Positions 6,663 to 20,824 of a stretch of DNA of 20,824 nucleotides are shown here, one piece after another; position 1 is the first letter of the stretch; each line of letters opens with the position of its first letter. Source of the DNA: a virus. The stretch lies in IMG/VR virus record IMGVR_UViG_3300034284_001345, positions 1-20,824 of that record. The stretch is one strand, 5' to 3'. The notes beneath the pieces are model-generated. The model did no database searches. It was not told the DNA's origin and worked only from the letters and a program-made list of their open reading frames with translations. The position numbers and the translations under genes were made by a program.

Positions 6663-7274
6663 TTAATTTTCTTCCATTATTAAATGACTAAGACATATAA
6701 AGTTTTCGGTTAAAAAAAAGTAATTATCTAAAAGTACTAAAGAAACTGAAATTTGGTTAGAAATTTTTGATTCAAAATCTTCAATTTTTGTTTTTAAAAA
6801 TGGTTGATCTGGGTTAACAAAAATATTGTCATCTAAAGTTTCTACATTTAGATTAAAAGGCTTAGAATCTAAAGATTGAATAAAATAGTTTTCTTCATTT
6901 TCACTAGATATCATTTTACCAATAATACTATCTGCATTTTTTAAATACATGTGATCTACCTCTAAATCTTTCTGTATTAATATTGGATCTATTCCTGACA
7001 ATATATTGTTGTTTAAACTTTTAAAATTTCCAAAATTTTTATGAACAAAAACAGAATATACTGTTGCAGAACACAAAACAGTATCTCCTGTTTGAATAAA
7101 AAATCCTTCTCTTTTGTTATTTAATTTTATGTATCGATGATAAAATTCTGAATGAGTTAAAATTTCTGAATCTTTTGTTTTAATAGATAAAATTTTATCA
7201 CCAAACTGTAAATCTTCAATGTTTTTTAAAGTTTTATCCTCAAGATATACTTTTGTTCCAATTGGGAATCCCAT
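6663..7274 (-). CDS. Degenerate Hint-like (hedgehog/intein fold) protein
   Basis: The 203-residue protein begins GFPIGTKVYLEDKTLKNIEDLQFGDKILS. This matches the usual Hint opening 'CFxxGTKVxxxDGxxKxIEDLxxGDxVLS' but has Gly where the nucleophilic Cys should be. SGIDPILIQKD (93-103) aligns with the block-B 'HP' loop, with Asp in place of His. The end NYFFLTENFICLSH resembles block F/G 'NYFxxNGxLVHN' but lacks the terminal HN. It begins 5 nt after the stop of a complete Hint gene. By inspection it has the fold but probably not the self-cleavage chemistry. The assignment needs a profile search. Confidence 0.6.
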   Translation of the reverse strand: MGFPIGTKVYLEDKTLKNIEDLQFGDKILSIKTKDSEILTHSEFYHRYIKLNNKREGFFIQTGDTVLCSATVYSVFVHKNFGNFKSLNNNILSGIDPILIQKDLEVDHMYLKNADSIIGKMISSENEENYFIQSLDSKPFNLNVETLDDNIFVNPDQPFLKTKIEDFESKISNQISVSLVLLDNYFFLTENFICLSHLIMEEN

Positions 7275-10290: not shown

Positions 10291-10361
10291 CTTTGAGTGA
10301 AGGAATCGGACCTTCATTGTCAGGTTCGGAACCTGGGGTCCGACCATTAGACGAACTCAAA
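10291..10361 (-). tRNA. tRNA-Arg (anticodon CCG)
   Basis: Read on the minus strand, 71 nt fold as a tRNA. The acceptor TTTGAGT pairs with ACTCAAA (7 bp), discriminator G. The D arm is GTCT/GGAC with the loop GG. The anticodon arm has loop TTCCGAA, giving CCG at 10327-10329; its first pair is a C-A mismatch. The T arm GAAGG/CCTTC has loop TCCGATT, where C replaces the usual second T. No CCA is encoded. It lies between an extended -10 promoter and a tail gene. The anticodon would read CGG (Arg). It could be slightly degenerate. Confidence 0.82.
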
Positions 10362-14970: not shown

Positions 14971-15167
14971 AGCGAGAATCCTAATCTATTAGAAGTGATA
15001 GCCTCTACCTGTGCTAATTGCTCAGGAGTAGCGTTGCGATAAGCGTTAATGCTCTCAGCAATCCATGGAAAACTTTCCATAGCAAGCGCATGCTCTTTAG
15101 CATAGCGAGCCTGTTGGGCTTTTCTAATATCCGCAATAATGTTATTGTTAGGGTTATTGTTTATCAT
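14967..15167 (-). CDS. Small helical protein, first gene of the minus-strand early operon
   Basis: The 66-residue product starts with an Asn-rich stretch (MINNNPNNNII), then ADIRKAQQARYAKEHALAME and PEQLAQVEAITSNRLGFSL, mostly helical. It follows a promoter at 15207-15235 and a leader with GAAAGGATAAC. It heads five overlapping genes (to 14464). I do not recognise a family. Confidence 0.62.
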   Translation of the reverse strand: MINNNPNNNIIADIRKAQQARYAKEHALAMESFPWIAESINAYRNATPEQLAQVEAITSNRLGFSL

Positions 15168-15206
15168 TTATAGTTATCCTTTCAAGATACTTTCTTTATA
15201 CCCCCT

Positions 15207-15235
15207 AGTCTAGCAGGGGGGACTGACATTTTGGG
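15207..15235 (-). promoter_or_regulatory. Leftward early promoter (TGCTAGACT)
   Basis: Extended -10 TGC-TAGACT with a weak -35 (CCCAAA) at 17 bp. The -10 lies in the loop of a CCCCCT/AGGGGG hairpin (15201-15220). Leader TATAAAGAAAG follows. It drives the operon starting at 15167. Confidence 0.6.
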
Positions 15236-15256
15236 GACTTTCCCCTAGTGTCGTGG

Positions 15257-15272
15257 TGTGAGATACCTCACT
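15257..15272. promoter_or_regulatory. GlxR/CRP-like site TGTGAGATACCTCACT
   Basis: Fits TGTGANNTANNTCACA at all but the last base. Centre is 64.5 bp upstream of the predicted start of the leftward promoter at 15207-15235. Confidence 0.6.
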
Positions 15273-15275
15273 TAA

Positions 15276-15391
15276 TTGCTACGCTCATCCTATTGCTAGG
15301 CTTATTTGGTAGGCTCATTGAGGCTATCTAATCTCTAACTCACTTACTTGCTAGGCTCATCCTCTTATCGAGGGTTATTTGCTAGGCTCAT
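15276..15391. repeat. Five iteron-like direct repeats TTGCTAGGCTCAT
   Basis: Copies start at 15276, 15293, 15306, 15348 and 15379. The last two are identical and the others differ by one base each. Spacing is irregular (17, 13, 42 and 31 nt). Read on the minus strand each unit begins ATGAGCCTAGCAA, which would start very short ORFs such as MSLANNPR and MSLASK. They could be initiator-binding iterons, a leader with micro-ORFs, or both. Confidence 0.75.
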
Positions 15392-15424
15392 TGAGTCTGC
15401 TTCTTTATTTTTTTGTATAATGGA

Positions 15425-15453
15425 ATTATAGCAGAGATAACCCCAAAAGTCAA
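15425..15453 (-). promoter_or_regulatory. Leftward near-consensus promoter TTGACT-N17-TATAAT
   Basis: TTGACT (15453-15448) and TATAAT (15430-15425) are 17 bp apart, with TG one base before the -10. Transcription would run through the iteron-like repeats toward the leftward operon. An inverted GGCGTGTCG lies just upstream. Confidence 0.75.
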
Positions 15454-15485
15454 GACGACACGCCGTAAATAACACGCATGTAATT

Positions 15486-15501
15486 AGTGATATACACCAC
15501 A
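15486..15501. promoter_or_regulatory. Degenerate GlxR/CRP-like site AGTGATATACACCACA
   Basis: Two mismatches to TGTGANNTANNTCACA, central TA kept. Centre is about 75.5 bp upstream of the predicted start of the leftward promoter at 15425-15453. Weak on its own; supported by spacing. Confidence 0.4.
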
Positions 15502-15510
15502 CGACAATTC

Positions 15511-15524
15511 GGACATATTGGACA
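15511..15524 (-). promoter_or_regulatory. TGTCC-N4-TGTCC direct repeat (minus orientation)
   Basis: Plus-strand GGACATATTGGACA, i.e. TGTCC-AATA-TGTCC on the minus strand. It lies upstream of the leftward promoter at 15425-15453. Confidence 0.5.
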
Positions 15525-15558
15525 TGTAGCCCGGCGCTATCGGGTGTGTCTGAGAGAG

Positions 15559-15567
15559 TTATCCACA
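15559..15567 (+). promoter_or_regulatory. DnaA box TTATCCACA
   Basis: Perfect match to the bacterial DnaA box consensus. It runs directly into a GlxR/CRP-like site (CATGATATAGATCACA), sharing its CA. The same fused arrangement recurs 42 nt downstream. Confidence 0.65.
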
Positions 15568-15581
15568 TGATATAGATCACA
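15566..15581. promoter_or_regulatory. GlxR/CRP-like site CATGATATAGATCACA
   Basis: Right arm perfect, left arm CATGA instead of TGTGA, central TA kept. It shares two bases with a DnaA box and lies about 118.5 bp upstream of the rightward start near 15692. Confidence 0.45.
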
Positions 15582-15600
15582 TACCCATTTCACGCTTAAG

Positions 15601-15609
15601 TTATCCACA
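15601..15609 (+). promoter_or_regulatory. DnaA box TTATCCACA
   Basis: Second perfect box in the same orientation, 42 nt (about four helical turns) from the first. It is also fused to a palindrome (CATGACCTACATCACA). Confidence 0.65.
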
Positions 15610-15623
15610 TGACCTACATCACA
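15608..15623. promoter_or_regulatory. GlxR/CRP-like site CATGACCTACATCACA
   Basis: Same form as the site at 15566, 42 bp further on. Centre is about 76.5 bp upstream of the predicted rightward start near 15692. Confidence 0.5.
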
Positions 15624-15631
15624 CGACACAA

Positions 15632-15645
15632 TGTCCGATTTGTCC
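15632..15645 (+). promoter_or_regulatory. TGTCC-N4-TGTCC direct repeat
   Basis: TGTCCGATTTGTCC, just before the rightward promoter at 15657-15685. Half-sites are 9 bp apart. A further ATGTC occurs inside that promoter's spacer. Confidence 0.5.
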
Positions 15646-15656
15646 TACCTACTAGT

Positions 15657-15685
15657 CAGTAAATGTCAGTGGTAGGTGTTATACT
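15657..15685 (+). promoter_or_regulatory. Rightward early promoter (TGTTATACT)
   Basis: Extended -10 TGT-TATACT; -35 position is weak (CAGTAA) at 17 bp. The spacer begins ATGTC, as at 16255, 16682 and 15207. Leader TATAAAGAAAG follows. Confidence 0.62.
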
Positions 15686-15736
15686 TCTAGTATAAAGAAA
15701 GTTGAGAAAGGTTCTCAAACTTAGAAAGGAATTCAA

Positions 15737-15910
15737 ATGAATTCAGTTATAAATAAAGTGTGTAAGCATACACCTAATAAAAATGCTATCTCTATCGTTA
15801 ATGACGAAAGATTTACCTTCTGCGAGAATTGTGAGCAGAATATAACTTCTCACTATCGTGAGGATAATGACTTCATGTCTTATTGGACTTCTTGGAAAGT
15901 TGGTAAGTAA
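15737..15910 (+). CDS. Small Cys/His protein (57 aa)
   Basis: The product has VCKHTPNKNAISIVNDERF followed by TFCENCEQNITSHYRE. The C-x-H...C-x2-C spacing could bind zinc. The end is FMSYWTSWKVGK. AGAAAGGAA lies 8 nt before the ATG. It is the first gene after the rightward promoter at 15657 and is followed directly (no gap) by the next ATG. Similar Cys/His layout to the 14168 gene, but no clear homology along the length. Confidence 0.65.
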   Translation: MNSVINKVCKHTPNKNAISIVNDERFTFCENCEQNITSHYREDNDFMSYWTSWKVGK

Positions 15911-16012
15911 ATGATAGATTTATTTTGTAAAGTTTGCGATGGCTTTGTGCTATCGCTTCCTGCTGATGAAGCAGAAGACTTAACTGTTAAATGTTCTAGT
16001 TGTTGGGAATAA
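15911..16012 (+). CDS. Mini zinc-ribbon protein (33 aa)
   Basis: The product MIDLFCKVCDGFVLSLPADE then AEDLTVKCSSCWE has two C-x2-C pairs 22 residues apart, the minimum for a zinc ribbon. Its ATG starts at the base after the upstream stop. Probably a DNA- or protein-binding accessory; function unknown. Confidence 0.58.
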   Translation: MIDLFCKVCDGFVLSLPADEAEDLTVKCSSCWE

Positions 16013-16016
16013 TAAA

Positions 16017-16142
16017 ATGTTAAAAGAAATAAAAAACAAAATTATTCGTATTCAAGAATTGCGTCGTAGTAATGCTGCGACTCCAATTCCAAATAAAAAA
16101 AAGTATTCAAGAAAAACAAAACATAAAAATAAATTGCAATAA
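16017..16142 (+). CDS. Small, very basic protein (41 aa)
   Basis: The product is dominated by Lys and Arg (MLKEIKNKIIRIQELRRSNA, then NKKKYSRKTKHKNKLQ), consistent with nucleic-acid binding. ATG lies 4 nt after the upstream stop and a GGGAATAA stretch precedes it. No family recognised. Confidence 0.55.
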   Translation: MLKEIKNKIIRIQELRRSNAATPIPNKKKYSRKTKHKNKLQ

Positions 16143-16147
16143 AAAAA

Positions 16148-16168
16148 CCCGGCGCACCTGGCGTGTCG
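16148..16168 (+). repeat. CCCGGCGC-N4-GGCGTGTCG element
   Basis: The GC-rich element occurs 6 nt after the stop of the 16017 gene. A near-identical copy is at 17439-17459 and a diverged one at 15530-15550. A short GCGC/GCGT stem is possible. In all three the next element is a CRP-like palindrome 36-50 nt further on. Confidence 0.6.
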
Positions 16169-16177
16169 TACACAGGC

Positions 16178-16186
16178 TGTGGATAA
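16178..16186 (-). promoter_or_regulatory. DnaA box (inverted, TGTGGATAA)
   Basis: Perfect box in the opposite orientation, 11 nt before another palindrome (16198-16213), in the next intergenic cassette. It suggests that DnaA boxes belong to the cassette and are not limited to one origin. Confidence 0.6.
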
Positions 16187-16197
16187 CTTACGTACGA

Positions 16198-16213
16198 TGT
16201 GATTTTTCTCACA
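16198..16213. promoter_or_regulatory. CRP-type palindrome TGTGATTTTTCTCACA
   Basis: Both arms match TGTGA-N6-TCACA perfectly; the centre lacks the GlxR-type TA. It lies about 84.5 bp upstream of the predicted start near 16290. Confidence 0.6.
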
Positions 16214-16254
16214 AGACTTGAGCGTCTCATTATTTGGAATTACTGGCTAGTAGG

Positions 16255-16283
16255 TTGTAAATGTCTGCTAATTCTGATAGACT
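16255..16283 (+). promoter_or_regulatory. Early promoter TTGTAA-N17-TAGACT
   Basis: Extended -10 (TGATAGACT), spacer begins ATGTC, leader AATAAAGAAAGG follows. Drives genes at 16321 and 16527. Confidence 0.65.
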
Positions 16284-16320
16284 TACGGAGTAAGAAAATA
16301 AAGAAAGGAAGTGGCTAACA

Positions 16321-16524
16321 ATGGCTAACTTATACACAATAGAAAATCTCCTAGTGGGAAAAACTTATAACTCAAAAACTTTGTCTGGAGAAATTGTCTC
16401 AGCAGAGAAATCTAATCAACCAATTTGGTATGGAGAAAATACGGAAGCGTATTTGGTAGAAATTTTTTCTCCTCATACTTTGCGTAATAAATACCGCACA
16501 ATTGCGGTGAAGGTTGGTGAATAA
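16321..16524 (+). CDS. Small beta-barrel-like protein (67 aa)
   Basis: ATG follows AAAGGAAG after the promoter at 16255. The sequence YTIENLLVGKTYNSKTLSGEIVSAE, then TEAYLVEIFSP and RTIAVKVGE alternates strands and loops. It is vaguely like the 19588 and 20347 products ('VGxTYxSxxxxGxI'). The likeness is weak. Function unknown. Confidence 0.6.
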   Translation: MANLYTIENLLVGKTYNSKTLSGEIVSAEKSNQPIWYGENTEAYLVEIFSPHTLRNKYRTIAVKVGE

Positions 16525-16526
16525 TA

Positions 16527-16649
16527 ATGGGATATATTGAGATATTTCGCCTTGATGAACAAGGTGCTGGGTGGGTTGACCTTTCTGAGGCTACCCCCGC
16601 AGAATTGCTTGACCTAGAAATTGGCTTATTCCAAGAAGGGGCTTTGTGA
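16527..16649 (+). CDS. Small acidic protein (40 aa)
   Basis: The product MGYIEIFRLDEQGAGWVDLS then EATPAELLDLEIGLFQEGAL is acidic, with a strand-loop start and a helical end. ATG lies 2 nt after the upstream stop. Its stop codon overlaps a perfect CRP-type palindrome, showing how tightly the region is packed. Function unknown. Confidence 0.55.
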   Translation: MGYIEIFRLDEQGAGWVDLSEATPAELLDLEIGLFQEGAL

Positions 16650-16660
16650 GATAAATCACA
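16645..16660. promoter_or_regulatory. GlxR/CRP-like site TGTGAGATAAATCACA
   Basis: Perfect TGTGANNTANNTCACA. Centre is 64.5 bp upstream of the predicted start near 16717, the same distance as at 15257. Its left arm contains the stop codon of the upstream gene (TGA, 16647-16649). Confidence 0.7.
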
Positions 16661-16681
16661 AGGCAACACACCCCCCGCAGG

Positions 16682-16710
16682 TTGAAAATGTCGGTGGGAT
16701 TTGATAGGAT
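16682..16710 (+). promoter_or_regulatory. Early promoter TTGAAA-N17-TAGGAT
   Basis: Extended -10 (TGATAGGAT), spacer begins ATGTCGG, leader AATAAAGAAAGG follows. Drives the run starting at 16745. Confidence 0.68.
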
Positions 16711-16744
16711 AGTCTTATCAAACAATAAAGAAAGGTGGTCAGAA

Positions 16745-16927
16745 ATGACTTACACTATAAAACTAGAAACCTATAATGGCGCAGTAAAAAATATTTACTT
16801 AACCACTAAAGGACAAGTGGCTGAGTTTATTAACACTTATCCAAACCAATTACCTGTTGGCGTATCTGTTAAATTAGATTGCGATATGCTAGGGATTAGA
16901 GGAACGCTAAGAGGTAAAAAACAATGA
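16745..16927 (+). CDS. Small protein, paralogue of the 14558 gene
   Basis: Start at 16745 (MTYTIKLETYNG) follows AAAGGTGG; an earlier in-frame start lies inside the promoter. The 60 residues (NGAVKNIYLTTKGQVAEFIN, then LPVGVSVKLDCDMLGIRGTL) match the 14558 product throughout. It is the first gene of four from the promoter at 16682. The presence of a copy in each divergent operon suggests a repeated early function. Confidence 0.68.
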   Translation: MTYTIKLETYNGAVKNIYLTTKGQVAEFINTYPNQLPVGVSVKLDCDMLGIRGTLRGKKQ

Positions 16928-17073
16928 TTAACTCTGTTATGCGTTTTGATTGTAATGATTGCAATGGGCAAGGTCTTATCTTTTGGGGTAATGACCTTGA
17001 CTACAATGTGGAAAAATGCGAGTGTAATGATTTCGCACTAGGAACTTTATTTACTACGAAAGAGGCTGACTAA
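16924..17073 (+). CDS. Small DnaJ-type zinc-finger-like protein, copy 1
   Basis: The ATG overlaps the upstream stop (ATGA). Of 49 residues, FDCNDCNGQGLIFWGNDLDY then NVEKCECN gives C-x2-C-x-G-x-G...C-x-C, like half of a DnaJ cysteine-rich repeat. It is clearly paralogous to the 17577 product. Probably zinc-binding and protein-interacting. Confidence 0.62.
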   Translation: MINSVMRFDCNDCNGQGLIFWGNDLDYNVEKCECNDFALGTLFTTKEAD

Positions 17074-17265
17074 ATGACTAGAAAAGACTATATCAAAACC
17101 GCAAACATATTGGCTGGATTTGTAGATGAAGTTCCACAAAACACTTATGAAGATTTAGTTCAAGAGTTTGCTGAGTGGTTCAAATCAGATAACGAAAACT
17201 TTGACTTTGCAAGATTTGAAAAGGCTTGCGGAATTGATGAGATTGGATTAATAAATGTTAACTAA
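17074..17265 (+). CDS. Small acidic helical protein (63 aa)
   Basis: ATG starts directly after the upstream TAA. The product MTRKDYIKTANILAGFVDEV then TYEDLVQEFAEWFKSDNENF, DFARFEKACG is helical and acidic. The opening 'TRKDYIxxAxIL' with 'F...FxxDNxxFDxxxFxxA' is a pattern seen in several small phage proteins of unknown role. It overlaps the next gene by 11 nt. Confidence 0.62.
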   Translation: MTRKDYIKTANILAGFVDEVPQNTYEDLVQEFAEWFKSDNENFDFARFEKACGIDEIGLINVN

Positions 17266-17407
17266 TTTAGATGTGATTGCAATAATAATTGCGCTACTTG
17301 GTTGCTTAACTGTTATGGGTTTATTTTGGAAACAAAATATTGCACAACAAAAAGAAATTCGCAGATTGCAAATTGCGTTGCGAACTGAGCGACTTAAAAA
17401 CAAATAA
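17255..17407 (+). CDS. Small membrane protein with basic tail (50 aa)
   Basis: The product MLTNLDVIAIIIALLGCLTV, MGLFWKQN has one hydrophobic segment. A helical basic tail follows (IAQQKEIRRLQIALRTERLK). It overlaps the upstream gene by 11 nt and ends the operon. It resembles small phage membrane proteins of the Rz/holin size class, but its early-operon setting argues against a lysis role. Confidence 0.58.
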   Translation: MLTNLDVIAIIIALLGCLTVMGLFWKQNIAQQKEIRRLQIALRTERLKNK

Positions 17408-17438
17408 ACAAAAGGCCCTAGAACATACGTTCGAAAGG

Positions 17439-17459
17439 CCCGGCGCTGACGGCGTGTCG
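17439..17459 (+). repeat. CCCGGCGC-N4-GGCGTGTCG element
   Basis: Second near-identical copy; the four central bases differ (TGAC against ACCT). Upstream, GGCCC...GAAC-ATAC-GTTC...GGCCC (17414-17440) can form a small stem. Possibly a terminator/insulator remnant of a duplicated intergenic cassette. Confidence 0.6.
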
Positions 17460-17477
17460 CAATCAATAGTCTTTACG

Positions 17478-17493
17478 TGTGGTTAAGATCACA
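17478..17493. promoter_or_regulatory. GlxR/CRP-like site TGTGGTTAAGATCACA
   Basis: Right arm perfect, one mismatch in the left arm and a changed centre. It lies about 73.5 bp upstream of the predicted start near 17559. Confidence 0.5.
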
Positions 17494-17523
17494 CCCCAGA
17501 TTCTCCAGATTATGGTGTCTAAT

Positions 17524-17552
17524 TAGATTTTGTCGGTTGTATCTGATAGGAT
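17524..17552 (+). promoter_or_regulatory. Early promoter (TGATAGGAT)
   Basis: Same extended -10 as at 16682, spacer begins TTGTCGG; the -35 position (TAGATT) is weak. Leader TATAAAGAAAG follows. Drives the run from 17577. Confidence 0.62.
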
Positions 17553-17576
17553 AAAGATATAAAGAAAGAAGGCAAA

Positions 17577-17741
17577 ATGGGTAAAGTAAAAGCAAGCGTA
17601 ATGGATATATTGGAGTGCGATAGTTGTTATGGCTATGGTTGGCAATTCGTAGGAAATGCTATAGACTATGATGTATGGGCGTGCGAGTGTAATCCTTACA
17701 ATATCCCTGCCGACAACCTACTAGATTGGAAACTAAACTAA
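17577..17741 (+). CDS. Small DnaJ-type zinc-finger-like protein, copy 2
   Basis: The 54-residue product has LECDSCYGYGWQFVGNAIDY, DVWACECNPYN. It aligns with copy 1 at every Cys, at G-x-G, GN, DY and CECN. AAAGAAGG lies before the ATG at 17577. First gene of a run of five from the promoter at 17524; its stop overlaps the next ATG (TAATG). Confidence 0.62.
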   Translation: MGKVKASVMDILECDSCYGYGWQFVGNAIDYDVWACECNPYNIPADNLLDWKLN

Positions 17742-17950
17742 TGGAATATACTTATTCACTTACTACTTCGTATGACGGAGAGTTAATTCATACCCTGCGA
17801 GTTAGCGATTTGTTTGACGCCGTTCATGCTTGGGATAAATGCGTGGACTATGGCTTTGCTAAAGAATACGCAACCTATAACTTGTCTGACCCAACAGGTA
17901 AGATGTATACTAAAACCTTCTACACCAACGGAAAGGTATCAATTAAATAA
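17741..17950 (+). CDS. Small uncharacterised protein (69 aa)
   Basis: The start at 17741 (MEYTYSLTTSYDGEL) is coupled by TAATG; an earlier TTG would overlap the previous gene. HTLRVSDLFDAVHAWDKCVD and YATYNLSDPTGKMYTKTFYT suggest a mixed alpha/beta fold. Both ends are TAATG-coupled. Function unknown. Confidence 0.6.
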   Translation: MEYTYSLTTSYDGELIHTLRVSDLFDAVHAWDKCVDYGFAKEYATYNLSDPTGKMYTKTFYTNGKVSIK

Positions 17951-18234
17951 TGGGATCAATAACAGCAATAGGTTTAGCAGATACAACGCTAGACCTAGAA
18001 ACACAATTAAAGTATCACTTGCAAGGTAATCATTATCCACCAATACCAACAGTAATGGTGCAGCCTTGCATCGAGGCTATTGACGCTTACTATGATGAGG
18101 ACTACTCTCGTAAAATAGAGTTGCCAATTGTTGATGGATTCCAGATTAGTTGGAAGGGTAATACTTGGACTACCGCTAGTGCATTGGTATCACACGCACA
18201 CCTAGAGTGGTTTATCGAGCCAGTAGATGAGTAA
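17950..18234 (+). CDS. Small uncharacterised protein (94 aa)
   Basis: TAATG-coupled to the previous gene. The sequence includes LETQLKYHLQGNHYPPIPTV, IEAIDAYYDEDYSRKIELPI and ASALVSHAHLEWFIEPVDE. Charged and aromatic residues mix as in small actinophage proteins of unknown role. No catalytic motif is evident. Confidence 0.6.
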   Translation: MGSITAIGLADTTLDLETQLKYHLQGNHYPPIPTVMVQPCIEAIDAYYDEDYSRKIELPIVDGFQISWKGNTWTTASALVSHAHLEWFIEPVDE

Positions 18235-18319
18235 AGACTTGCAAGATAAACTAGATGCAGTTGCGCTAATCTTAGAGCCTATTCTATGGGAAACACTAGC
18301 AGAAATTGAGGAACAATGA
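18227..18319 (+). CDS. Tiny acidic helical protein (30 aa)
   Basis: The product MSKDLQDKLDAVALILEPIL, WETLAEIEEQ is one predicted amphipathic helix. ATG overlaps the previous gene's end by 8 nt, and the TGA overlaps the next ATG (ATGA). Function unknown; similar in style to the 14878 product. Confidence 0.5.
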   Translation: MSKDLQDKLDAVALILEPILWETLAEIEEQ

Positions 18320-18555
18320 AAACATTAGAAAACGATGATATTATTCTAATTATGGATTACTATAAAGTTGATATGTTAACTGCAGGACAGTTAATGGTTG
18401 ACGATAACATTCTTGTTGATGGCGAGGTTGTTTGTATTACTGAAATAATTTCATTAGCCGATGGATACACTTTAGAAATTATAAATGATTTTGGTGAAAG
18501 AGATACTATTGAAGTTTCTGAGTATCAGCAATTTGATTTAATGATGTTGAAATAA
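18316..18555 (+). CDS. Small beta-rich protein (79 aa)
   Basis: The product begins MKTLENDDIILIMDYYKVDM and continues LVDGEVVCITEIISLADGYT, LEIINDFGERDTIEVSEYQQF. The strand pattern (V-x-G-E-V-V-x-I-x-E, Y-T-L-E-I-I) is compatible with a small SH3-like barrel. ATGA overlap with the upstream gene. Last gene of the run. Confidence 0.6.
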   Translation: MKTLENDDIILIMDYYKVDMLTAGQLMVDDNILVDGEVVCITEIISLADGYTLEIINDFGERDTIEVSEYQQFDLMMLK

Positions 18556-18570
18556 GAGGCGCCCGGCCAA

Positions 18571-18584
18571 TGTCCGTTTTGTCC
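18571..18584 (+). promoter_or_regulatory. TGTCC-N4-TGTCC direct repeat
   Basis: TGTCCGTTTTGTCC, about 22 bp before the -35 box of the GP88-like gene. No CRP-type palindrome is seen at this promoter. Confidence 0.5.
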
Positions 18585-18605
18585 CATTTTGTTAATTACG
18601 TATAC

Positions 18606-18634
18606 TTGTATTTTTCCCCTAAAAATGTTATACT
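18606..18634 (+). promoter_or_regulatory. Promoter TTGTAT-N17-TATACT before the GP88-like gene
   Basis: Extended -10 TGT-TATACT ends 5 nt before the ATG at 18640, so the mRNA would be leaderless or nearly so. The -35 and first spacer bases are shared with the promoter at 19525. Confidence 0.68.
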
Positions 18635-18639
18635 TAATT

Positions 18640-19362
18640 ATGACCCAATTAAAGAGATCGCATGATAGAAAGGTCGCTAACCTTGTTACAAAAAATGGAA
18701 AGCAAGCCGCAATTGCAAACACGTTCGGATTACCCGCAGGAAAAAACTTTTCATGTCCTGGTGCTACGTCTATCTGCGAGACTGTTTGCTACGCTGGGAA
18801 ACTTGAAAAACTATTCAAAGGAGTAAAGGCTAACCTCCTTCACAATTGGGAGTTATTAAAAGACGCAGACGAATCAACTATGATAAGTCTATTAGATAAT
18901 ATGATTAATGATTTTAAAAAAGATTGTGAAAAGAAAAAAGCCCCACTACTATTTCGCATTCATTGGGACGGTGATTTCTTTAATGACACGTACACCAAAG
19001 CATGGAAGCAGATCATCCTTAACAATGCAGATATAAAATTTTGGGTATATACACGAGTAGAAGCAGCAGCCTTAATGCTTAAGGGTATTGATAATCTATC
19101 TTTATACTATTCAACAGATAGCGAGAATAAGCAAATAGGTGTTAGTTTAAAGAAAGATCATGGAGTGCGCCTTGCATACCTTGCACAGAATTTTGCTATA
19201 GGTCAAGCAGATATGAAAAAATTGTTTGATAAACCTGGCGCTAAGTGTCCTGAGAACCTAAAAGCCATTCCCCTAATCTCAAATGCTGGAAGTGCTTGCG
19301 TATCATGCGGATTGTGTGTATACTCTAAAAGCGATATTGTTTTCTCATCATCTAAAAAATAA
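18640..19362 (+). CDS. GP88-like protein (gene product 88 family)
   Basis: Start chosen at 18640 (MTQLKRSHDRK), 5 nt after an extended -10; the longer form to 18589 overlaps the promoter. The 240-residue protein has NTFGLPAGKNFSCPGATSIC (C39, C46, then C50 in ETVCYAG). RIHWDGDFFND and FWVYTR follow. The C-terminal cysteines are C203, C220, C223 and C226 (ACVSCGLCVYS). 'FGLPAG...SCPGAT...C...CYA' and the late cysteine cluster are the features I associate with the GP88 family of actinobacteriophages. The seven cysteines may bind metal or an Fe-S cluster. Molecular function unknown. Confidence 0.72.
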   Translation: MTQLKRSHDRKVANLVTKNGKQAAIANTFGLPAGKNFSCPGATSICETVCYAGKLEKLFKGVKANLLHNWELLKDADESTMISLLDNMINDFKKDCEKKKAPLLFRIHWDGDFFNDTYTKAWKQIILNNADIKFWVYTRVEAAALMLKGIDNLSLYYSTDSENKQIGVSLKKDHGVRLAYLAQNFAIGQADMKKLFDKPGAKCPENLKAIPLISNAGSACVSCGLCVYSKSDIVFSSSKK

Positions 19363-19372
19363 GGAGTGGTGC

Positions 19373-19438
19373 TTGGAACTCTTAATAGGACTATCAATTA
19401 TATTCGTCTATTTATTGTTTGCTGGTCTAGGACACTAA
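19373..19438 (+). CDS. Tiny membrane peptide (21 aa, TTG start)
   Basis: TTG at 19373 follows AAGGAG at 6 nt. The product (L/M)ELLIGLSIIFVYLLFAGLGH is one hydrophobic segment. The strong ribosome site and placement 10 nt after the GP88-like gene argue that it is translated. Function unknown. Confidence 0.5.
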   Translation: MELLIGLSIIFVYLLFAGLGH

Positions 19439-19439
19439 A

Positions 19440-19453
19440 TGTCCGTTTTGTCC
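19440..19453 (+). promoter_or_regulatory. TGTCC-N4-TGTCC direct repeat
   Basis: Identical to the copy at 18571 (TGTCCGTTTTGTCC). It starts 2 nt after a tiny gene's stop and precedes a CRP-type palindrome. Confidence 0.5.
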
Positions 19454-19468
19454 GTTTCTATACGCTGG

Positions 19469-19484
19469 TGTGAGATACATCACA
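19469..19484. promoter_or_regulatory. GlxR/CRP-like site TGTGAGATACATCACA
   Basis: Perfect TGTGANNTANNTCACA, about 83.5 bp upstream of the predicted start near 19560. A TGTCC repeat lies 16 bp before it. Confidence 0.7.
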
Positions 19485-19524
19485 GATATCACATCTCAAA
19501 ATATGAGATTATTAGAAATATAAC

Positions 19525-19553
19525 TTGTATTTTTGACCAAATAATGTTATTCT
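19525..19553 (+). promoter_or_regulatory. Early promoter TTGTAT-N17-TATTCT
   Basis: Extended -10 TGT-TATTCT. Closely similar to the promoter at 18606 (TTGTATTTTT...AATGTTAT). A 35-nt leader with AAGGAG precedes the 19588 gene. Confidence 0.65.
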
Positions 19554-19587
19554 TAGGTAGTAAGCCAAACCAACAAGAAGGAGAACC

Positions 19588-19752
19588 ATGTCCGTATCAA
19601 CCGCAACATACAAAGTAGGCGACACCTACACATCACAAAAATCAAAGGTAGTAGGAACTATTACCGAAATTGTGCCAACTAACAAGAACACAGTTAGAGT
19701 TAAGTTAGATGTTAATGGCTCAACTCGCTGGACTACTTGGACAGCAAAGTAA
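19588..19752 (+). CDS. Small SH3-like barrel protein, copy 1
   Basis: Of 54 residues, TYKVGDTYTSQKSKVVGTIT and EIVPTNKNTVRVKLDVNGST dominate, ending RWTTWTAK. It aligns with the 20347 product: Y-x-(V/L)-G-D-x-(Y/F)-T-(S/T)-x-K, then G-x-I, and N-x-(N/K)-T-x-R-V-x-L. AAGGAGA precedes the ATG. A conserved hairpin pair follows its stop. Function unknown; the form suggests a small nucleic-acid or protein-binding barrel. Confidence 0.65.
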   Translation: MSVSTATYKVGDTYTSQKSKVVGTITEIVPTNKNTVRVKLDVNGSTRWTTWTAK

Positions 19753-19754
19753 TC

Positions 19755-19798
19755 TTAGCCTAGTGGCTAAAGTCCTGAGCATGACCAAAAACTGCTCA
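19755..19798 (+). promoter_or_regulatory. 3' hairpin pair ending TGAGCA...TGCTCA, copy 1
   Basis: TTAGCC-TAGT-GGCTAA forms one hairpin directly after the stop. TGAGCA (19776) pairs with TGCTCA (19793) around an 11-nt loop starting TGA. The second hairpin and its flanks recur after the paralogous gene at 20347. Not followed by a T run, so an RNA element or processing signal is as likely as a terminator. Confidence 0.6.
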
Positions 19799-19837
19799 AC
19801 TTAAAAGCCCCACTAACAGAAACGGAAACCCATCACA

Positions 19838-20260
19838 ATGGCAAGAAGCAAACCCATCAGCGTAAAAATCGCTACTGCTAAGGTTATTACAGCCTTAGAA
19901 AACAGATTAGCCGAACTAGAGGCTAACTATAAAACACAAGACGAGAACGAGGCAAAGTTCCAAACCCAAATAGACGCTTGGAAAAAAGAACTATTTGCTT
20001 TTGCTATCGCTAATGTTTCTAAGGCAGAAAACCTTAGAACTAACTATCGCCAATGGAACAACAACCTTAATGTTGATTTTGATTTAACAGTTAAAGAAGG
20101 CGAGTTCCCTGCTGAACCTGAGCGTAAGTTTGAGCAAATCCATGTTCATACTTATCGTGAGCAGAAAGAGGAAATGGAAAACGCTATCCGTATCCTTAAA
20201 ATGACCGACGAGGAAACAGTTAGCACTAGCACATATAACGCTATCGCTAGATACCTTTAA
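19838..20260 (+). CDS. Coiled-coil-like early protein (140 aa)
   Basis: The protein has SVKIATAKVITALENRLAEL and NEAKFQTQIDAWKKELFAFA as N-terminal helices with heptad character. A central charged region and EQIHVHTYREQKEEMENAIR follow, then DEETVSTSTYNAIARYL. The Shine-Dalgarno is weak (GGAAACCC at a distance), so expression may depend on the upstream gene. A TTTGGGGG/CCCCCAAA hairpin follows 3 nt after the stop. No family recognised. Confidence 0.62.
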   Translation: MARSKPISVKIATAKVITALENRLAELEANYKTQDENEAKFQTQIDAWKKELFAFAIANVSKAENLRTNYRQWNNNLNVDFDLTVKEGEFPAEPERKFEQIHVHTYREQKEEMENAIRILKMTDEETVSTSTYNAIARYL

Positions 20261-20263
20261 TAG

Positions 20264-20291
20264 TTTGGGGGTATTTGACTATGCCCCCAAA
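20264..20291 (+). terminator. GC hairpin after the 19838 gene, overlapping a promoter
   Basis: TTTGGGGG pairs with CCCCCAAA (8 bp) around a 12-nt loop that contains the -35 box TTGACT of the next promoter. There is no U run after it. It may stop upstream transcription, mask the promoter in single-stranded form, or both. Confidence 0.5.
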
Positions 20292-20303
20292 ATATGTTAG
20301 ACT
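20275..20303 (+). promoter_or_regulatory. Early promoter TTGACT-N17-TAGACT
   Basis: Extended -10 TGT-TAGACT. The -35 lies in the loop of a TTTGGGGG/CCCCCAAA hairpin (20264-20291). Drives the 20347 gene. Confidence 0.68.
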
Positions 20304-20346
20304 AGATAAGTAATGACCCAAACCCAAACAGAAAGGCAAGACCCAA

Positions 20347-20517
20347 ATGACACTAGGCGGATACACATACCAACTAGGTGATTTATTCACCACAAGCAAA
20401 ACAGGTATTACAGGTAGAATTGTAAAGTTCTCACCTATTAACTCTAAGACCACTAGAGTATCCTTACAATTAGCAAATGGCGCAAGACGCCTTGCTATGG
20501 TAAGCACAACTAAATAA
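20347..20517 (+). CDS. Small SH3-like barrel protein, copy 2
   Basis: Of 56 residues, YTYQLGDLFTTSKTGITGRI and VKFSPINSKTTRVSLQLANG align with the 19588 product. The end is ARRLAMVSTTK. AAAGGCAAG precedes the ATG after the promoter at 20275. Like copy 1 it is followed by the conserved TGAGCA...TGCTCA hairpin, so gene and 3' element were duplicated together. Confidence 0.65.
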   Translation: MTLGGYTYQLGDLFTTSKTGITGRIVKFSPINSKTTRVSLQLANGARRLAMVSTTK

Positions 20518-20518
20518 T

Positions 20519-20597
20519 TTATCTCTGATAAGCACTTGGCTCATCTGCTAAGTTATTCCTGAGATAAGACTCCTGAGCATGAGTTCTAAACTGCTCA
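20519..20597 (+). promoter_or_regulatory. 3' hairpin pair ending TGAGCA...TGCTCA, copy 2
   Basis: TTATCTC (20519) pairs with GAGATAA (20561) over a long loop. TGAGCA (20574) then pairs with TGCTCA (20592) around a 12-nt loop starting TGA. The CCTGAGCATGA...AACTGCTCA core is shared with copy 1 at 19774. Confidence 0.6.
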
Positions 20598-20629
20598 CCT
20601 TTTAATTGCCCCGCAAAAACCCGGGCACA

Positions 20630-20645
20630 TGTGATGTAGATCACG
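20630..20645. promoter_or_regulatory. GlxR/CRP-like site TGTGATGTAGATCACG
   Basis: Fits the consensus at all but the last base. It lies about 75.5 bp upstream of the predicted start near 20713, ahead of the last gene. Confidence 0.6.
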
Positions 20646-20677
20646 TCCCACTATGTGAGACTAATTAAGAACTGAAC

Positions 20678-20706
20678 TTGCATTTCACAGGCCATGGTGA
20701 TATTAT
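20678..20706 (+). promoter_or_regulatory. Early promoter TTGCAT-N17-TATTAT
   Basis: Extended -10 TGA-TATTAT, followed by an AAAAGGA ribosome site before the ATG at 20732. Confidence 0.62.
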
Positions 20707-20731
20707 TGTATTAACAGAAAAGGAACCCCTA

Positions 20732-20824
20732 ATGAGCGAAGTAATGTTACAAGATCAGTTAACTGTTTCTTATAATCCCAACCTACTTGTGACCTACAAG
20801 TATATACCTGAACTGACACCTTCA
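20732..20824 (+). CDS. N-terminus of an unidentified early protein (runs off the window)
   Basis: ATG at 20732 follows AAAAGGA after the promoter at 20678. The 31 visible residues, MSEVMLQDQLTVSYNPNLLV then TYKYIPELTPS, contain no recognisable motif. The frame is open to the window end. Confidence 0.6.
   Translation, partial: MSEVMLQDQLTVSYNPNLLVTYKYIPELTPS

Follow-up and report, generated by a model that had tools for sequence, protein, structure and literature searches.

A helically phased array of CRP-type operators in a gene block of a probable freshwater actinobacteriophage lineage

At class I promoters of Escherichia coli, CRP is positioned at -61.5, -71.5, -82.5 or -92.5, according to PMC11894529, and host CRP can also act on phage DNA, as PMC6737242 reports repression of the pir, dam and recE promoters of coliphage T1 by the complex of cyclic AMP (cAMP) and CRP. 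Here, we describe nine CRP-type sites in virus record IMGVR_UViG_3300034284_001345, whose whole length of 20,824 bases (36% G+C) is called the window, together with their counterparts in related phages. From comparison of these sequences we consider it probable that a freshwater actinobacteriophage lineage recruits host CRP as a class I-type activator at phased operators. Literature searches (phage with GlxR or CRP, DnaA boxes) listed no description of phased promoter arrays on host CRP in phages, which is not proof of absence.

Operators and promoters in the window

The nine sites span 15257-20645, a block of small genes that lie mostly on the + strand. Two sites are perfect, three have one mismatch and four have two mismatches. 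They are listed here, without strand, together with the leftward promoter and the marker gene of the lineage.

15257-15272: CRP-type site TGTGAGATACCTCACT, 64.5 bp from the predicted +1 of a leftward promoter (-10 TAGACT, 15212-15207, weak -35)
15425-15453, - strand: leftward promoter TTGACT-17-TATAAT with TGC extension
15486-15501: CRP-type site AGTGATATACACCACA, two mismatches, 75.5 bp from the leftward predicted +1, identical in relatives L009 and L030
15566-15581: CRP-type site CATGATATAGATCACA, two mismatches, 42 bp upstream of the site at 15608
15608-15623: CRP-type site CATGACCTACATCACA, two mismatches, 76.5 bp from the predicted +1 (-10 TATACT, 15680-15685, weak -35)
16198-16213: CRP-type site TGTGATTTTTCTCACA, 84.5 bp from the predicted +1 (-10 TAGACT, 16278-16283)
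16645-16660: perfect CRP-type site TGTGAGATAAATCACA, 64.5 bp from the predicted +1 (-10 TAGGAT, 16705-16710)
17478-17493: CRP-type site TGTGGTTAAGATCACA, 73.5 bp from the predicted +1 (-10 TAGGAT, 17547-17552)
18652-19362, + strand: GP88-family gene (PF17338), lineage marker
19469-19484: perfect CRP-type site TGTGAGATACATCACA, 83.5 bp from the predicted +1 (-10 TATTCT, 19548-19553)
20630-20645: CRP-type site TGTGATGTAGATCACG, 75.5 bp from the predicted +1 (-10 TATTAT, 20701-20706)

Within 15000-20824, TGTGANNTANNTCACA occurs five times when one mismatch is tolerated and nine times when two are, whereas 200 dinucleotide shuffles gave means of 0.015 (maximum 1) and 0.3 (maximum 3); all nine sites named in a preliminary description of this DNA are present, far above shuffled expectation. 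The rest of the window (about 15 kb) shows no excess, with 0 and 2 sites at the same two thresholds against 0.1 and 1.1 in 60 shuffles, and the 17 three-mismatch sites of the whole window are at chance level, this count being reached in 22 of 100 shuffles. Intergenic DNA (1641 bp) holds 1, 4 and 8 sites at 0, 1 and 2 mismatches against means of 0, 0.001 and 0.081 in 1000 single-base shuffles, so that site density is not equal in real and shuffled intergenic sequence; site 16645 was left out of this count because our gene list places it across a gene end.

Transcription starts are predictions throughout, with +1 placed 12 bases after the first base of the -10 hexamer. The distances from site centre to predicted +1 for eight sites, read by hand, are 64.5, 64.5, 73.5, 75.5, 75.5, 76.5, 83.5 and 84.5 bp, six of which were recomputed with the same values, and they reproduce those reported in the preliminary description. 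Their phase concentration is R 0.83 (chance 0.008 against a uniform 60-89 bp). The ninth site, at 15566, lies 118.5 bp from the predicted start that it shares with 15608. Eight of the ten promoters accepted in the block carry a CRP-type site, two of these eight being leftward (-10 at 15212 and 15430). A mechanical list with a -35 cut-off gives 11 promoters in the block, namely six of the eight site promoters, 18629 and 20298, and three weaker places at 15915, 20549 and 18298 (- strand); the 15680 and 15212 promoters have weak -35s that fall below this cut-off.

Conservation and helical phase in the phage lineage

A search of IMG/VR with the GP88 gene gave 442 relatives, of which the best 80 were kept; nine further loci, six of them from contigs already in the set, brought the total to 89 partly redundant loci. 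These hold 341 perfect TGTGAN6TCACA sites and none of the swapped control TCACAN6TGTGA. With at most one mismatch the counts are 689 against 27 for the swapped control, 40 with spacer 5 and 19 with spacer 7. Chance or base composition as the source of the sites is ruled out by the shuffles and by these swapped and spacer controls. Three long records (115, 111 and 80 kb) carry 11 of 14, 6 of 6 and 7 of 7 of their sites inside one block of 7-10 kb. In aligned relatives the half-sites may persist while the centre changes, as at 16645 in L009, L011 and L030, and not all window sites were recovered in every aligned relative.

The helical register recurs across the lineage. Sufficiently long flanks were available for 642 sites of the window and the 80 GP88 loci, and removal of near copies left 389. 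Around these, searched in both directions, extended -10 elements peak at 64.5 bp (84), 74.5 bp (47) and 83.5-85.5 bp (24, 13 and 22; sum 59), and only 0-1 was found at each of 67.5, 68.5 and 77.5-82.5 bp. A candidate promoter was assigned to 551 of the 642 sites, with a -35 score of at least 2 for 467; any distance from 30 to 145 bp was accepted, so that this count involves no selection for phase. Single-linkage clustering, which merged 446 of the 467 promoters into one group on account of their common core and leader, was set aside for greedy clustering, which yielded 59 clusters, 17 of them single. The modal distance lies within 1.5 bp of 54, 64.5, 74.5 or 84.5 in 51 of the 59 clusters, and 406 of the 467 sites are in phase. 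For 107 distinct cluster-distance pairs at 45-100 bp the phase statistic is 0.76 at a best period of 10.4 bp, the maximum in 2000 uniform draws being 0.34.

Within clusters, sites jump by approximately whole turns. One cluster of 60 has 35 members at 64.5 and 15 at 74.5, the 19469 promoter cluster (41 members) has 11 at 74.5 and 28 at 83.5, and a cluster of 43 has 10 at 65.5, 28 at 83.5-85.5 and 5 at 106.5. The distance is fixed in the 20630 promoter cluster (75.5 in 24 of 24 members), and looser clusters exist, one with 16 members spread over 74.5-137.5. The class I geometry claimed in the preliminary description therefore stands as regards helical phasing, which is strong across relatives; measured from predicted starts, the phases themselves fall 2-3 bp away from the positions in E. 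coli.

Promoter anatomy was read from 271 site-promoter pairs that were selected for phase and an extended -10. The promoter consensus is approximately TTGAAT-17-TGnTAkaaT, with a conserved TTGTCAG right after the -35, and the site consensus is TGTGATnTAnATCACA. A+T-rich steps occur at fixed -42/-40 and -52/-50, and also at -62 to -58 in the two longer classes; these could be places where the C-terminal domains of the RNA polymerase alpha subunit dock, the reference positions for such docking being those of E. coli.

The mechanism that we favour would work as follows. A compact block of small genes, probably early to judge from their layout, would be driven from extended -10 promoters of the sigma70 type, with operators sharing a helical register at about -64.5, -74.5 or -84.5 and occasionally, among the relatives, at -54. 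These operators would be bound by host CRP, which would contact the C-terminal domain of the alpha subunit of host RNA polymerase in the manner of class I promoters. Operators that generally score higher than anything in the host-like genome G046 would let the phage capture CRP in any host state, instead of sensing cAMP.

Scans of the collection by spacing gave at least 120 in-phase matches in each of two scans and 84 off-phase matches, numbers that are not comparable; the off-phase matches come mostly from the same phage kind (71 of 80 loci with at least three sites). Perfect palindromes also make up 7 of 10 and 4 of 4 of the sites with at most one mismatch in two other virus stretches, L349 (50% G+C) and L381 (68% G+C), the latter with two CRP-type sites 63.5 bp from an extended -10. 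Similar CRP-type arrays may exist in phages of other hosts.

Candidate regulator, host and competing explanations

A search for a CRP-type helix-turn-helix (HTH_Crp_2), limited to this regulator family, gave no match in 25 phage records, which may be fragments. WhiB, present in 22 of 30 phage records, indicates an actinobacterial host. A GP88-alignment search of the genome collection returned 13 loci, most of them, apart from the three discussed below, in Geodermatophilus-type or other actinobacterial genomes. The likeliest host group appears to be an order with genomes of 0.6-2.2 Mb, probably Ca. Nanopelagicales, an assignment based on genome size, G+C (45-48% in the candidate-order genomes read) and habitat (PMC10202952, PMC6802176). 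Neither Corynebacterium nor Mycobacterium is indicated as the host, because the array is missing from those parts of two cultured GP88 phages that were read. A secreted phage protein of 562 residues (L233:17520-19208, - strand, record G016) has a C-terminal tail that matches several candidate-order genomes at 40-74% identity. Record G018, whose GP88 (L036) is 100% identical to that of the window, starts with a peroxidase-family gene (PF00141, L238:82-1056), possibly a cut katG and so a possible host-like metabolic gene.

Full-length CRP is present in 18 of 25 small genomes among the Actinomycetota bin G001 and 40 relatives, with one each over the cut-off among the matches listed. This host-type CRP has a cNMP-binding domain and a Crp helix-turn-helix and is closest to Mycobacterium CRP, which it matches along its length (E 2e-77 for the one searched); the aligned stretches include what we take to be the cAMP pocket. 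Helix VGASRETVNKALADFA of Mycobacterium/Mycolicibacterium CRP is found in all four translated host-type CRPs (L129, L130, L136 and L138), and the adjoining gene reads as endonuclease-III-like. The earlier attribution of the sites to a host CRP/GlxR protein is thus supported, as the most likely reading, in its protein part, given the phasing across relatives, this Mycobacterium-type recognition helix and the absence of a CRP-type helix-turn-helix from the phage records searched; its cAMP part is not supported, for reasons given below.

The motif is avoided in the candidate order. Over 54 genomes, TGTGA-N6-TCACA occurs 757 times against 1862 times with gap 7, and is the lower of the two in 53 (the exception being G113), whereas backwards controls give 801 (gap 6) and 863 (gap 7). 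When G046 was scanned with a matrix built from phage sites, its best place scored 11.8 against a phage median of about 20, and one place reached at least 10 against 36 expected under a first-order model. With at most one mismatch, gap 6 is the lowest gap in G046 (16 against 29-64, gaps 0-12) and in G047 (8 against 18-40, gaps 2-12), and exact GTGA-N6-TCAC occurs 4 times in G046 and 2 times in G047 against 12-36 for spacers 3-5 and 7-14. A fourth-order model ranks TGTGA first in depletion among 30 permuted half-sites in G046. Avoidance of this kind would be expected if the genomes shunned binding by a functional CRP. Intergenic two-mismatch sites (14 in G046, 17 in G047) do not exceed in number those with other spacers. 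A weak conserved site before a gene named trpG/pabA-like from its sequence, present in both host-like genomes, was not counted because it lies among DnaA boxes.

Several observations weigh against recruitment of host CRP as proposed here. In the window, the accepted promoters at 18629 and 20298 have no CRP site, nor do the places at 15915, 20549 and 18298, which we have taken for chance. Off-phase peaks of extended -10 elements occur around the 389 sites (13 at 69.5, 10 at 27.5 and 8 at 29.5), and the four target phases were fixed after the histogram was seen. On the host side, the two closest GP88 matches of the genome collection (70% and 71%) are in bins labelled cyanobacterium and Phycisphaerae; these loci carry CRP-type sites and for that reason are taken for misplaced phage contigs. 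The candidate-order match reaches only 48% (L103, with a perfect site, in the 1.3-Mb bin G001). Matches to the G016 secreted protein in 8 of 61 genomes of the order of G001, against 0 of 296 in an even phylum draw, form an inflated contrast, because fewer candidates were scored per genome in the draw (at most 4 among those listed, against up to 22 in the order search) and because six of the eight match over the last 33-120 residues only. Perfect TGTGANNTANNTCACA, the 12-base form, occurs in 0 of 296 candidate-order genomes (backwards control 3), so that no positive CRP regulon is seen there at this motif. Under a second-order model TGTGA ranks third in G046, two permuted half-sites being slightly more depleted. 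Finally, avoidance extends to seven of the 54 genomes, perhaps incomplete ones, that had no full-length CRP match, so that CRP is its presumed cause.

The strongest competitor, though an unlikely one, is that the palindromes are operators of a phage-encoded repressor or activator sharing the CRP motif. Cluster A mycobacteriophages carry such arrays of repressor sites (stoperators), the array described here sits mostly in one block, and GP88 occurs widely in mycobacteriophages, the name Mycobacterium being borne by 270 of 375 matched records. Against a phage regulator stand the lack of a match in the 25 records, possibly fragments, that were searched for the HTH_Crp_2 family, the placement of sites upstream of the -35 and not over the core promoter, the helical phase, and the avoidance of exactly the gap-6 spacing by the candidate host order. 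Still less probable is a sponge, in which many strong sites would draw bound CRP off host promoters and phasing would be secondary; the far greater strength of phage sites over those of G046 would suit it, but a sponge needs neither a fixed helical register nor jumps by turns.

Equally improbable in our judgement is the proposal of the preliminary description that the sites tie the phage to the cAMP state of its host. The cNMP-binding domain and lengthwise alignment of host-type CRP speak for it. However, a search that covered cyclases of class III (PF00211) found none in 18 host-like genomes, where the positive control, Corynebacterium glutamicum, did give a match, and none in 30 phage records. 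The phage sites are moreover near-consensus, and sites scoring above anything in G046 would favour occupancy at low ligand, so that coupling to the cAMP state is left unsupported.

Recruitment of host CRP may be accompanied by a second host factor. The DnaA box TTATCCACA occurs 216 times against 12.6 expected in 54 non-redundant loci (about 17-fold), where a control word gives 10 against 10.3, and 78 of 132 distinct boxes lie within 150 bp of a CRP site. In G046 two copies of the same box precede dnaA and two more lie between dnaA and dnaN. Three boxes are in the window:

15559-15567, + strand: DnaA box TTATCCACA, overlapping site 15566 by two bases
15601-15609, + strand: DnaA box TTATCCACA, overlapping site 15608 by two bases
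16178-16186, - strand: DnaA box TTATCCACA

A CRP site lies 50-110 bp upstream of 137 of 438 promoter-like places, many of which are chance, and 37 of these 137 also have a DnaA box within 200 bp; 17 of the 438 have a DnaA box alone. The boxes may serve transcription or may mark a replication origin. We tentatively suggest, while thinking it more probably wrong than right, that the block is run jointly by host CRP, sitting behind RNA polymerase by one or several turns of the helix, and by DnaA at the origin-like boxes beside it, the phage reading host replication state, not cAMP, in a host genome cleared of strong CRP sites.

Other elements recur near the operators. One copy of a direct repeat precedes the promoter of the GP88 gene:

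18571-18584, + strand: direct repeat TGTCCGTTTTGTCC before the GP88-gene promoter (-10 TATACT at 18629, no CRP site), centred 63.5 bp before the predicted +1

The repeat, TGTCC-N4-TGTCC, is exact at four places (15511-15524 on the - strand, 15632-15645, 18571-18584 and 19440-19453), and six copies have at most one mismatch against 0.5 expected; its position at 63.5 bp before a promoter with no CRP site suggests that a second activator may use the same register. The word CGACACGCC/GGCGTGTCG lies after a CCCGGCGC stretch and before CRP sites at 15530-15552, 16147-16170 and 17438-17460 and occurs 157 times against 0.7 expected in the 54 loci; RNA folding of its three window copies is not notable. 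Inverted repeats TGAGCA-spacer-TGCTCA follow small genes at 19765-19812, which folds well (z -3.65), and at 20566-20612, which does not (z -0.77), and are possible terminators. Elsewhere in the window, a gene of the leftward block (6663-7274, - strand) has a weak Hint-module match below the family cut-off, and a tRNA-Arg(CCG) lies at 10291-10361 (- strand).

Comparison with known systems

If recruitment of host CRP is correct, a phage lineage whose hosts are probably some of the most abundant bacteria in fresh water runs a gene block through one host regulator, with a promoter geometry that can be read from sequence alone. It would also give CRP a testable function in streamlined hosts for which the search for class III cyclase was negative, make available several hundred natural variants in the helical register of an activator, and suggest a marker for assigning hosts to uncultured phages.

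The closest relatives by gene content, Streptomyces phage Angela and Mycobacterium phage TipsytheTRex, likewise have the GP88 gene inside a small-gene block; unlike the window, the 16.9 and 8.4 kb read of them contain no CRP array, with 0 and 1 sites at up to one mismatch. Of the GlxR of Corynebacterium and CRP of Mycobacterium (PDB 3d0s and 4byy, the second of which we take to be GlxR), the Mycobacterium protein shares recognition helix VGASRETVNKALADFA with the candidate host CRP, and those systems differ in the absence here of perfect 12-base sites from the 296 candidate host genomes and of class III cyclase from the 18 searched. Class I CRP promoters of the E. coli lac type resemble the phage promoters in having TGTGA-N6-TCACA upstream of the -35 at positions one helical turn apart. 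They differ in phase as measured here from predicted starts, and in that the phage promoters have an extended -10 and stand several to a block. Coliphage T1 also places several phage promoters under host CRP, but by repression and at three named promoters, whereas the arrangement described here is a phased array with activator geometry in many phages. Activation of this kind is itself known; what would be new is class I-like activation by host CRP organized as the promoter grammar of a phage gene block.

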